From an uncultured Paracoccaceae bacterium (lineage in GTDB: Bacteria; Pseudomonadota; Alphaproteobacteria; Rhodobacterales; Rhodobacteraceae), in the NCBI GenBank assembly GCA_947488605.1, contig CANKZJ010000001.1, positions 558,001 to 622,000 of the forward strand: DNA of 64,000 nucleotides, written 5' to 3'. Each line of letters begins with the position of its first letter. Position 1 is the first letter of the stretch. Shown piece by piece: positions 51,406 through 56,433 of this stretch. The position numbers and the translations under genes were made by a program. The notes under the pieces are model-generated. The model was given only the letters and a program-made list of their open reading frames with translations. It had not been told where the DNA came from and did not search any database.

Positions 51406-52386
51406 CTACCTGCCCCCCTTCTTCTTTTTCATCGGCATGCCCAAGGCCGCGGGATCGATATCTTGGGCTGGCGCATCGGTGCGGATCGCAACCCGCAGCT
51501 TGGCTGATCGTGAGCGCGGGTTTTGTGCCAGCTCGATCTCATCCGGCCCAATCGCCTTGCGCTTCTCAATGCGCCAAGCTGGTGTAATCTGCTGGGTCTC
51601 GGGGGCATAGCGGTTCGCGTTCGCAGTATTGCCTGACCGCGCCTGCAAGAACCGTTTGACCATACGGTCCTCGACCGAATGAAACGTGACGACCGCCAAT
51701 TGACCGCCGGGCTTCAAGGCGCGTTCTGCCGCCATCAGTCCTTCGGCCAATTCGCCATATTCATTGTTCACCGCAATCCGCAATGCTTGAAATGTTCGCG
51801 TTGCAGGATGGGATTGGCCGGGTTTGGAGCGCGGCAAACAACCCTCGACAATCTTGGCCAATTGCAATGTCGTCGTCAGTGGGCGCGCTGCAACAATCGC
51901 CTTGGCGATCCTGCGCGATGCACGCTCTTCGCCGTAAAGGTAAATAATATCAGCAAGTTCAGCTTCATCAGCCTCATTGCAAAGGTCCGCCGCCGATGGC
52001 CCATCTTGGCTCATCCGCATATCAAGTGGCCCGTCCCGCATGAACGAAAAGCCACGCTCGGCGATATCAAGCTGCATCGAACTAACACCAAGGTCCAAGA
52101 CGACGCCGTCCAGATCAGAGCCATATTCGTCCAGTTTGGAAAACACCCCTGCAACGGTTTCGATCCGGTCGCCAAAGGAGCCAATCCAGTCAGCCGCCAT
52201 TTCAAATGCCAGCGGATCGCGGTCAACGCCGATCACTTTGGCAGCGCCAGCATCCAGCAATTCGCGCGTATACCCGCCATTCCCAAACGTGCCATCCAAC
52301 CAAACCCCAGAAACGGGCGAGACCGCTGCGATGAGCGGTCTAATCAGAACAGGAATATGGGGTGAGGTTTCAGCGGCAGCAGACAT
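51406..52386 (-). CDS. rsmH: 16S rRNA (cytosine-1402-N4)-methyltransferase
   Basis: RsmH (MraW) uses S-adenosylmethionine to methylate N4 of C1402 in the ribosomal P site. The 326-residue protein has [15 protein letters not shown], the SAM-binding [44 protein letters not shown], and a C-terminal [19 protein letters not shown]. The last residues are basic. It lies 3 bp after mraZ, and ftsL follows with no gap. Confidence 0.97.
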
Positions 52387-52389
52387 GGA

Positions 52390-52884
52390 TCACCCGTCCA
52401 ACAGGATGAGCGGGTCAAAGCCATCCTCTTGCGTGTCCAGCCAACCGCTAAGGTCTTCTGTCACTTCCTCGCCAAACACATCGGCTTTCCAAATCTCGAA
52501 ATAGTCGCCCAACCCGCTGAACGTCAACTCGCCTTCGGTCAGGCCCAGCTTTTGGCGTTGTTTGATTGGCATTACGGTACGGCCATCTTTATCAATATCA
52601 AGTTTAATGGATTGGCCGATGATCAAGCGCGAAAGTTTTTGCTTACGCTCGGACCCACGTGGCAGGGCCTTGATCTGCGCTGCCAGCGCCTCGAATTCTT
52701 CAACGGTATACCCATGCAACTGGTTCTTCAGGTGATCGCCATAAAGCAGGTACATGCGGGGAAACAGACCCGGGGTCCATTCAGGGTCACCAGCTTCAAG
52801 CACACGGCGGAAGTCAGCAGGGATCGACATACGCCCCTTTGCATCCACCTTTTGGGTGTGTGTACCTGTGAAACTCTGAACCAC
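52390..52884 (-). CDS. mraZ: Transcriptional regulator MraZ
   Basis: MraZ is a ring-forming DNA-binding protein that represses the dcw cluster in E. coli. The 164-residue protein has two SpoVT/AbrB-type half-domains: VDAKGRMSIPADFRRVLE and SIKLDIDKDGRTVMPIKQRQ. The start is GTG (52884), with AAAGGA 5 nt upstream. It is the first gene of the cluster and is preceded by a long leader with an UpsM-like hairpin RNA, so the two control layers of the cluster meet here. Confidence 0.95.
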   Translation of the reverse strand: MVQSFTGTHTQKVDAKGRMSIPADFRRVLEAGDPEWTPGLFPRMYLLYGDHLKNQLHGYTVEEFEALAAQIKALPRGSERKQKLSRLIIGQSIKLDIDKDGRTVMPIKQRQKLGLTEGELTFSGLGDYFEIWKADVFGEEVTEDLSGWLDTQEDGFDPLILLDG

Positions 52885-55168: not shown

Positions 55169-55185
55169 TATGCATTTTCTGCATA
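55169..55185. promoter_or_regulatory. Operator-like dyad between mrp and the DUF1127 operon
   Basis: TATGCA-ttttc-TGCATA is a perfect 6-bp inverted repeat in the divergent region, 130 bp from mrp and 105 bp from the DUF1127 start. Confidence 0.35.
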
Positions 55186-55206
55186 GCAGCATTGCGGAAA
55201 GGACTA

Positions 55207-55234
55207 TTGTGCAGTTGCAGCATCATCATACATG
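55207..55234 (+). promoter_or_regulatory. Candidate promoter of the DUF1127-sRNA operon
   Basis: TTGTGC (55207-55212) and TACATG (55229-55234) are 16 bp apart. In R. sphaeroides the equivalent operon is driven by the alternative sigma factors RpoHI and RpoHII; the weak -10 here would fit such dependence, but this is inference. Confidence 0.35.
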
Positions 55235-55289: not shown

Positions 55290-55505
55290 ATGACATATAA
55301 CACAGACACAGGTTTTGAAGGTTTCTCACTTGGACAGCGCTTTGCCGCTTTTCGGGCTGATATGGCAGAGAACGCCGCGAAACGCAAAATCTACAAAACA
55401 ACTCTCGCCGAGCTGAACAGCCTGACAAACCGCGATCTACTGGATCTTGGCATTTCACGCGGCGAAATACCCGTAATCGCCCACGAGGCAGCTTACGGAC
55501 AGTAA
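55290..55505 (+). CDS. DUF1127 protein, CcaF1-like
   Basis: The 71-residue protein ends in the DUF1127 (YjiS-like) motif: LAELNSLTNRDLLDLGIS followed by RGEIPVIAHEA. The N-terminal half is less conserved and basic/hydrophilic. In R. sphaeroides the gene upstream of the CcsR sRNAs encodes CcaF1, a small DUF1127 RNA-binding protein that affects sRNA maturation. The same order here, with the CCUCCUCCC hairpins starting 14 bp after the stop, supports homology. A weak ribosome site (GAGATGAGC) precedes the ATG. Confidence 0.9.
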   Translation: MTYNTDTGFEGFSLGQRFAAFRADMAENAAKRKIYKTTLAELNSLTNRDLLDLGISRGEIPVIAHEAAYGQ

Positions 55506-55518
55506 TTCAAGTATTCGG

Positions 55519-55546
55519 ATTTGCCGCCTCCTCCCTTTAGGCAGAT
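55519..55546 (+). ncRNA. Cuckoo/CcsR-type stem-loop 1
   Basis: ATTTGCC pairs with GGCAGAT (7 bp, one G-U); the loop carries CCTCCTCCC at 55527-55535, with TTTA after it. The shortest member of the array. Confidence 0.75.
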
Positions 55547-55553
55547 CTGGACA

Positions 55554-55589
55554 AACCCGACGCTTCACCTCCTCCCGAGGCTGAGGGTT
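55554..55589 (+). ncRNA. Cuckoo/CcsR-type stem-loop 2
   Basis: Outer stem AACCC/GGGTT and inner stem GCTTC/GAGGC (one G-U) present the loop A-CCTCCTCCC (motif 55568-55576). Confidence 0.8.
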
Positions 55590-55598
55590 AACAATAAG

Positions 55599-55632
55599 GT
55601 GGCGGCATCCACCTCCTCCCGGATGCCGCCAC
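55599..55632 (+). ncRNA. Cuckoo/CcsR-type stem-loop 3
   Basis: A perfect 12-bp stem, GTGGCGGCATCC with GGATGCCGCCAC, presents the 10-nt loop A-CCTCCTCCC (motif 55612-55620). It is the most regular unit. Confidence 0.85.
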
Positions 55633-55648
55633 TTTACGACACCAGTTT

Positions 55649-55682
55649 CGGAACCGCCCATCCTCCTCCCGGGTTGGAACCG
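55649..55682 (+). ncRNA. Cuckoo/CcsR-type stem-loop 4
   Basis: CGG/CCG and CC/GG with CCC/GGG pair across an AA/AA internal loop and one bulge; the loop is AT-CCTCCTCCC (motif 55662-55670). Confidence 0.75.
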
Positions 55683-55689
55683 ATGATAC

Positions 55690-55727
55690 CGCCAGCTGCG
55701 CTCACCTCCTCCCGAGCAACGCTGGCG
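55690..55727 (+). ncRNA. Cuckoo/CcsR-type stem-loop 5
   Basis: CGCCAGC/GCTGGCG and an inner GCTC/GAGC form the stem; the loop is A-CCTCCTCCC (motif 55705-55713). Confidence 0.85.
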
Positions 55728-55732
55728 AGGAC

Positions 55733-55771
55733 GCGCCTTGCTTCTTCTCCTCCCGAGACGCAAGGAGGCGC
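55733..55771 (+). ncRNA. Cuckoo/CcsR-type stem-loop 6 (variant motif)
   Basis: GCGCC/GGCGC and TTGC/GCAA pair around bulges. The loop has TCTCCTCCC (55746-55754), a one-base variant of the motif, so binding may be weaker. Confidence 0.7.
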
Positions 55772-55783
55772 TGATAAATAAAG

Positions 55784-55817
55784 ACGGTCATGCCCACCTC
55801 CTCCCGGGCATGGCCGT
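55784..55817 (+). ncRNA. Cuckoo/CcsR-type stem-loop 7 (array end)
   Basis: A 12-bp stem (ACGGTCATGCCC with GGGCATGGCCGT, one G-U) presents A-CCTCCTCCC (motif 55797-55805). Being directly followed by a T-run it also serves as the operon terminator. Confidence 0.85.
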
Positions 55818-55824
55818 TTTTTTT
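55784..55824 (+). terminator. Rho-independent terminator of the DUF1127-sRNA operon
   Basis: Stem-loop 7 runs into eight T residues (55817-55824). The terminator loop itself is the CCTCCTCCC motif. Confidence 0.92.
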
Positions 55825-55837
55825 GTTTGGGGGGGCC

Positions 55838-56338
55838 TTAGCCCGCGCGTGACCAGCGCGGCGGGATACGTTCATTCGGGCTGTCGGACGTGAACGTCAC
55901 CGCGCGTTCGTCACATACATAGCCGCCGGAACCGCCACCAAACATACCGGTAGAGGAATCAAACGGGATCGTCATCGTTTGCCCCATCACATCGGCAGAT
56001 CCGACAAGCGTGTAGGTCGCTGTCACAACAGACCAACTGCCCGCCTCACCCACGAAGACCCCGCTGCTGACCCCACTCACGCTGACATCCATTGGTGGCA
56101 CGTCTGGCACCACGACATTCAAGACAAGATCATTGATCACCATATTTGCCATGCCGTCTGGTGTGATCGTCATCAAAACAGTGCCGCCAACAGGTGTAGC
56201 CGTGCCATTCATCTGCCTGCCCATGATCTGCGACAACGCCGCAAGGTCGGCCTCCCAAACGCCAAGCAGGCAATCGTCCACCGCCAAAGCAGGGGTCGCT
56301 ATGATCGCGGCCACACAGAAAACTGGTGAAATACGCAT
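55838..56338 (-). CDS. Secreted protein of unknown function
   Basis: No family is recognised. The 166-residue product (from the ATG at 56338) starts with a Sec signal peptide (RISPVFCVAAIIATPALAVD). The mature part begins DDCLLGVWEADLAAL, a beginning seen in lipocalin-like exported proteins, and is rich in Val, Gly, Thr and Ser, predicting beta strands. Two cysteines (near the start and in GYVCDERA) could form a disulfide. It is convergent with the DUF1127 operon, 13 bp past its T-run. Confidence 0.6.
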   Translation of the reverse strand: MRISPVFCVAAIIATPALAVDDCLLGVWEADLAALSQIMGRQMNGTATPVGGTVLMTITPDGMANMVINDLVLNVVVPDVPPMDVSVSGVSSGVFVGEAGSWSVVTATYTLVGSADVMGQTMTIPFDSSTGMFGGGSGGYVCDERAVTFTSDSPNERIPPRWSRAG

Positions 56339-56433
56339 TGAAAAATTCCTTTGGTTGTTAATCTTCAAACGATATCATGAAACGCAATACTGGCTAGTGG
56401 TGTGACAAACAGGTTGTCAGCATTGGTCTGAAT

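Follow-up and report, generated by a model that had tools for sequence, protein, structure and literature searches.

In the window (the whole 64-kb stretch of DNA that was analysed), a short gene encoding a CcaF1-like DUF1127 protein lies directly 5′ of an array of seven hairpins and on the same strand, as at the CIN1 locus, and the gene is itself preceded by ATGCATTTTCTGCATAGCAGCATTG, 11 nt and ATTGTGCAGTTGCAGCAT, in that order (Table 1). The seven hairpins had been described in an earlier note made from the letters alone, and all seven of its motif positions were found to be exact. Its reading of six identical loops, one variant and a last hairpin serving as terminator was likewise borne out; the loop motif is CCTCCTCCC in six hairpins and TCTCCTCCC in SL6, the motif starts are spaced by 41, 44, 50, 43, 41 and 51 nt, and a T run stands 3′ of SL7.

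Table 1. Features of the DUF1127 locus, in positions of the window.
Feature	Position	Strand	Basis or remark
ATGCA	55170-55174	+	Sequence; upstream block 55170..55194
VtlR/LsrB-type box TGCATAGCAGCATTG, 15 nt	55180-55194	+	Conservation and motif likeness
Putative promoter core	55206..55234	+	ATTGTGCA 55206-55213; TGCAGCAT 55216-55223; -10-like TACATG 55229-55234
DUF1127 protein, CcaF1-like, 71 aa	55290..55505	+	PF06568, E 1.1e-9; same-genus orthologues
SL1, motif 55527	55514..55551	+	14-nt loop; covariation helix 1, both-side change somewhere in 9/10 stem pairs
SL2, motif 55568	55554..55589	+	Closing stem GCUUC/GAGGC, outer AACCC/GGGUU; anchored comparison, outside the pair count
SL3, motif 55612	55595..55636	+	Fold; covariation helix 2
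SL4, motif 55662	55648..55683	+	Motif scan; covariation helices 3 and 4
SL5, motif 55705	55690..55727	+	Motif scan; covariation helices 5 and 6
SL6, motif 55746 (TCTCCTCCC)	55733..55771	+	Covariation helix 7
SL7, motif 55797, then T run (putative intrinsic terminator)	55780..55824	+	Covariation helix 8

Chance origin of the motif can be ruled out, as exact CCTCCTCCC was counted 6 times in the window against 0.26 expected and a count of six was reached in 0/100 shuffles. The 325-nt RNA at 55506-55830 folds at -137.5 kcal/mol, compared with -101 (sd 5.6) in 100 shuffles (z = -6.5), none of which folded as well. Every motif has a hairpin to itself; SL2 and SL6 have theirs partly paired in the minimum-energy fold, and the loop-exposing stem given for SL2 was taken from comparison with relatives. 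SL7 with its T run looks like the terminator of the array, and its absence from a terminator scan of the window, limited to loops of 8 nt, is probably due to its 10-nt loop. No tandem repeat was found by TRF in the window array. Six other exact copies of the motif occur in the same genome, each inside an open frame longer than 80 codons on at least one strand. Five were rejected as solo copies of the element, having no array-type hairpin fold; in the sixth (L230, C2:329151), part of the motif is enclosed by a CUGG/CCAG stem of four pairs.

The search with the DUF1127 protein matched 36 of 60 genomes, 35 of these matches being from the same genome or the same genus (probably GTDB Yoonia), and 30 of the 35 loci were read. 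Of the 30 Yoonia loci, 25 have seven loop cores, 4 have six and 1 has five; the spacings match, and in 26 loci the sixth loop is again the deviant TCTCCTCCC. Stem covariation in relatives, the test by which the earlier note was prepared to be refuted, was evident in an alignment of the 30 loci; 139 cells were changed on both sides of a pair, whereas shuffles gave 35.6 and sliding the partners by 1-3 columns gave 7-17. In the 60 stem pairs of six hairpins that were counted, 97.8% of cells are paired, a figure somewhat favoured by a structure derived from the same alignment, of which the both-side changes are independent. SL2 was omitted from the pair count because it is poorly aligned; when it is anchored on its motif, matched stem changes are visible. 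Mean pairwise identity is 0.89 in the loop, 0.81 in the stem and 0.64 elsewhere, in agreement with the earlier claim that the loop is kept more than the stem. The stems are selected as stems and the loop is selected as a loop. A looser stem test is a weak control, as it accepted 613/637 array loops but also 1039/2400 random positions; the both-side changes in the alignment are the better test.

A GAGGA at 55727-55731, 3′ of SL5, is invariant in 30/30 genus loci, with just its first G belonging to the SL5 stem, and could pair with the loops. Such a spacer as a general anti-loop element was rejected; only 25/78 named arrays have one (0.33 per array vs 0.12 shuffled), and it is hence treated as a feature of the genus.

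The earlier note had called the array “expanded”, which stands relative to Rhodobacter sphaeroides only. Of 295 family genomes, 218 contain two exact motifs next to each other at least once, and the highest numbers of exact motifs per locus are 26 (L010), then 17, 16, 15 and 14. In 80 named DUF1127 loci, the best 80 of 271, loop cores range from 0 (two loci) to 23, the highest being that of Loktanella atrilutea (L182), with a median of 7; 72 of these 80 loci have five or more cores and 6 have two to four. Seven hairpins are thus ordinary for the clade and the norm in the genus, so that the comparison of copy number in related genomes, which the earlier note had proposed as a check, leaves the array unexceptional. 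In L010, TRF detected a 140-nt unit of three hairpins repeated 6.5 times at 97% identity, showing that an array can be enlarged when a unit of several hairpins is duplicated. Among the first 30 array-pair loci of the family, a DUF1127 ORF was found in 27 and just upstream of the motifs in 26; at L017 it was found 3′ of the three motifs, not 5′. In two genomes (G112 and G092), motif pairs of separate arrays lie on two contigs.

This kind of locus is already known, namely from CcsR1-4/CcaF1, NfeR1/ar14 and the cuckoo family, and the kinship with CcsR1-4 and the cuckoo RNAs proposed in the earlier note is supported. As in cuckoo/CcsR-type RNAs, a conserved CCUCCUCCC loop is carried within hairpins of variable stem. 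The CcaF1-CcsR1-4 operon of R. sphaeroides (CIN1 locus) is reported to comprise a 71-aa DUF1127 protein, 3′-UTR hairpin sRNAs and an end terminator (PMC10253847), and the window resembles it in DUF1127 size, in its 3′-UTR hairpins and in the terminator at the end. In contrast to the seven hairpins and the VtlR/LsrB-type box of the window, the sRNAs of the R. sphaeroides operon number four and its promoter is reported to be of the RpoHI/RpoHII type. The array is also similar to alpha-r14/NfeR1 of Sinorhizobium meliloti (RF02344 ar14), in its CCUCCUCCC loops and variable stems. NfeR1 is described as an LsrB-activated sRNA of three CCUCCUCCC hairpins that silences ntrB by acting on the start region of this gene, with candidate targets that are mostly ABC transport systems, at translation start regions (PMC10746234). 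Unlike the array here, NfeR1 has three hairpins and its own promoter, and no DUF1127 gene is mentioned in the excerpt of that source. The cuckoo family was described with 2-4 adjacent hairpins (Reinkensmeier and Giegerich 2015, as related in PMC4504443), against seven here and 26 in a relative; we regard this as a limit of the description and not of the mechanism. The family search, for which the earlier note had looked to seven matches as support, did not bear this out; every Rfam family stayed below its gathering score in the window. RF02344 ar14 narrowly missed it twice (57.4 and 51.6 bits vs 58.8), RF02791 CcsR1 scored 33.1 bits against 65.3, and ar7 was also below threshold.

Upstream of the DUF1127 gene we have identified a VtlR/LsrB-type box that had been overlooked by the earlier note. 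The box, in the form TGCATRGCNGCATTG with at most 2 mismatches, is present in 78/80 of the best 80 of 271 DUF1127 loci and was not found at the other two (L200 and L207). In each of the 78 box loci, a distance of 11 or 12 nt separates the box from the best ATTGTGCA match 3′ of it, which is exact in 64 loci and has 1-3 mismatches in 14, and the elements at 55206..55234 may be assigned as -35/-10. The box followed by TTGTGC was found in 141/295 family genomes, mostly once each, and the reversed pattern in none of the 295. When 30 such loci were read, 28 had DUF1127 and 28 had at least 2 exact motifs downstream. In two of the loci (L299 and L314) the box precedes a CCTCCTCCC array but a DUF1127 ORF was not detected, which suggests that arrays may exist on their own, and one locus (L303) has the box and DUF1127 without an array. 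In the genome of the window, the zero-mismatch pattern has a single match, at the DUF1127 gene; at up to two mismatches there are 113 matches vs 22 reversed, and single weak boxes therefore mean little. In another set of 76 distinct loci, the box has more than 3 mismatches in 14 (L008, L010, L017, L019, L021, L030, L086, L089, L090, L091, L096, L100, L101 and L106). The miss at L010 is due to the cut end of the locus, an exact box being present upstream of the array in that genome, and ten other misses are two-motif matches without detected DUF1127.

The Brucella VtlR motif is given as CAATGCAGCCATGCA (PMC12595884); its reverse complement fits the box pattern exactly and differs from the window box in 2/15 bases. 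The core reported for A. tumefaciens is GCAT-N3-TG-N3-T (PMC7486931), from which the window box, like most other boxes, is one base off. In Rhizobiales, VtlR/LsrB is a regulator of the LysR kind whose GCAT-type box lies 5′ of small DUF1127 and sRNA genes (PMC7486931, PMC12595884), and the window shares with this circuit a VtlR-type box 5′ of a small DUF1127 gene. It differs in that the Rhizobiales sRNAs (AbcR/VrsA) are separate genes, whereas here the DUF1127 gene would carry the sRNAs as its 3′ UTR, and in that the LysR gene does not adjoin trxB. The circuit is reported to vary much between species (PMC7486931). No paper on a VtlR/LsrB box in Rhodobacteraceae, nor one on arrays above four hairpins, is among the matches listed in the partial literature, as far as titles and abstract beginnings go.

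A LysR protein is encoded in the same genome whose top solved-structure match is 9HH1 (E 5e-73, the next being 4.5e-28), that is, A. tumefaciens LsrB (PMC11975290). We compared 30/35 LysR matches of the genome with the LysR beside trxB of 30 alphaproteobacterial trxB loci. This LysR was the best match of the trxB-adjacent LysR in 14/30 loci (195-311 bits, 35-51% identical), while all remaining pairs reached 141 bits or less; its best matches thus point to LsrB and we call it LsrB-like. A position of LsrB beside trxB in this genome was rejected, as the neighbour was read as an Lrp-like ORF; the LsrB-like gene sits elsewhere, away from trxB. LsrB is stated to be unique to Rhizobiales in PMC11975290 and to be present in many Alphaproteobacteria in PMC7486931.

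An array working as we propose could nevertheless have a promoter read by RpoHI/RpoHII or another regulator instead of LsrB/VtlR, in keeping with the RpoHI/RpoHII promoter reported for ccaF1 of R. sphaeroides (PMC10253847). We consider this somewhat unlikely, given that the 15-nt box fits the VtlR motif, that an LsrB-like LysR is encoded in the genome and that NfeR1 is activated by LsrB (PMC10746234). The LsrB/VtlR input that we favour and an RpoHI/RpoHII input could in fact coexist side by side.

With regard to possible targets, the genome of the window has 24 sites of GGAGGAG-N4-12-ATG against 9 reversed, and the genes concerned include those of two Peripla_BP_6 proteins. As these sites are too few, the target test was moved to 13 same-genus relatives, none of them array-free. 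There, GGGAGGAG-N4-10-ATG has 139 sites vs 10 with the reversed pattern. Twenty-seven of the 139 were judged, by position or letters, to lie in the array on the opposite strand and were dropped, and the other 112 were all fetched, the first 40 having been chosen by recurrent spacers and the remaining ones added later. Sites of AAAGGAGG, which we take to be the perfect complement of the 16S tail, served as control (140 vs 26 reversed; 78/140 fetched). After ORFs of less than 60 aa were dropped (14/112 test, 28/78 control) together with 2 control sites without an ORF, 98 test ORFs were compared with 48 control ORFs.

The Pfam families found among the 98 test ORFs include AMP-binding (14), DctP (11), Peripla_BP_6 (9), SBP_bac_1 (8), luciferase-like (7), NMT1_3 (5), short-chain dehydrogenase (5, PhaB-like by our own reading) and DctQ (4). 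Four substrate-binding families account for 33 matches, in which one ORF may count twice. No substrate-binding family is among the 25/59 control Pfam families listed, nor was one found in eight controls scanned singly, signal-like clusters included; the control set contains one AMP-binding ORF and one PhaB-like ORF (L540). Signal-peptide-like starts were found in 22/52 homology clusters of GGGAGGAG vs 3/42 of AAAGGAGG (p = 1.2e-4) and, by sequence, in 44/98 test vs 4/48 control ORFs, by a crude rule under which the PhaB-like and FAD-oxidoreductase clusters are false positives by eye. The control is also noisier (26 reversed for 140 real sites, against 10 for 139), which alone would lower its secreted share; part of the gap is thus explained by more chance sites in the control, but the repeated transporter families are not. 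Those for TRAP/ABC substrate-binding proteins and for AMP-binding enzymes thus appear to be frequent among the genes whose Shine-Dalgarno sequence could pair with the loop, and these genes form a coherent candidate set, resembling the NfeR1 list, which supports the earlier suggestion that the loop would pair with Shine-Dalgarno sites. In the genome of the window, a MarR-family gene (C3:144549-144570) has as Shine-Dalgarno sequence the full nine-base complement GGGAGGAGG, making it a strong single target candidate.

CCUCC is common to the loop and the 16S tail, and many copies raise the dose, so that the array might mimic the 16S rRNA tail in a general titration of ribosome sites, lowering all mRNAs with a strong Shine-Dalgarno sequence and having no defined target set. 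This is improbable in view of the loop itself, which ends in CCC and whose first two positions are more variable than the remainder, of the different gene content of GGGAGGAG and AAAGGAGG sites, and of the mere 8 GGGAGGAG-N4-10-ATG sites in the genome, at least two of them inside the array. The same loop in differing stems is also compatible with a protein site, by which the C-rich loops would titrate the DUF1127 protein, Hfq or a cold-shock protein, mRNA pairing being secondary. Such a sponge is slightly less probable still, seeing that the candidate target set is coherent, that the DUF1127 ORF was not detected in 2/30 box loci, and that the motifs of NfeR1 act at the ntrB start, mutation of all three abolishing the silencing (PMC10746234). 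That the array serves chiefly the DUF1127 mRNA itself, as a 3′-UTR element for stability or termination and without action in trans, fits its place directly behind the ORF and the five or more T after the last hairpin in 59/78 named arrays, but it is most improbable, since one hairpin suffices for termination, loop identity is conserved, there are up to 26 copies and related RNAs act in trans (PMC10746234).

On sequence and by analogy with the CcaF1-CcsR1-4 and NfeR1 systems, the locus is probably an LsrB/VtlR-activated operon whose 3′ UTR would give rise to anti-Shine-Dalgarno sRNAs silencing mRNAs for uptake and carbon use. From the anatomy of the locus, its conservation and covariation, the box, the LsrB-like gene and the target bias, we infer transcription, processing, binding and silencing as follows. 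The LsrB/VtlR-type LysR would bind the box and activate transcription, as the box and the LysR gene suggest, and a single transcript would cover the DUF1127 ORF and the seven hairpins and end at SL7, in line with sequence and conservation. RNase E and CcaF1 are reported to take part in the maturation of CcsR1-4 (PMC10253847; processing also in PMC7866481), and by likeness to R. sphaeroides RNase E together with the DUF1127 protein would cut the transcript into hairpin sRNAs. The loop CCUCCUCCC would then pair with Shine-Dalgarno sites of the GGGAGGAG type and block translation, the mRNAs concerned being mainly, as the comparative target test and the NfeR1 precedent suggest, those of TRAP/ABC substrate-binding proteins and carbon-use enzymes. 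Several copies would presumably provide a larger dose of the same seed per transcript. Promoter and likely targets together suggest that the array would turn nutrient uptake down. Confidence in the circuit is slightly lowered by the noisier control set and because LsrB has already been placed in other Alphaproteobacteria.

Perhaps, with a chance that we put at just under even, a single LsrB/VtlR-type circuit in Rhodobacteraceae drives one “dosage array” of anti-Shine-Dalgarno hairpins behind a DUF1127 gene, whose copy number has evolved within 0-26, in part by multi-hairpin duplication, which would be a master brake on TRAP/ABC uptake and carbon-activation mRNAs and the counterpart of AbcR/NfeR1 in Rhizobiales. 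What appears to be new, in the sense of not being met in the partial literature, are arrays of 7-26 units, the box on Rhodobacteraceae DUF1127-array genes and uptake-centred candidate targets in the genus. Such a circuit could be tested for what switches the array on, what gets silenced and why copy number varies so widely, and with the arrays nature provides graded seed copy numbers on which sRNA dosage can be tested. It would join two literatures, that on Rhodobacter CcsR/CcaF1 and that on rhizobial LsrB/VtlR with AbcR/NfeR1, and TRAP/ABC candidate targets would tie the array to bacterial control of organic-matter uptake.

It is worth mentioning two neighbours of the array. A 176-aa ORF at 55838-56368 on the minus strand, with a signal-like start and without a Pfam family, converges on the array terminator. 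Moreover, ORFs that we read from the ORF list as mraZ- and mraW-like lie at 51406-52884, 2.4 kb off; in R. sphaeroides, the sRNA UpsM is reported to derive from the mraZ 5′ UTR (PMC7866481).
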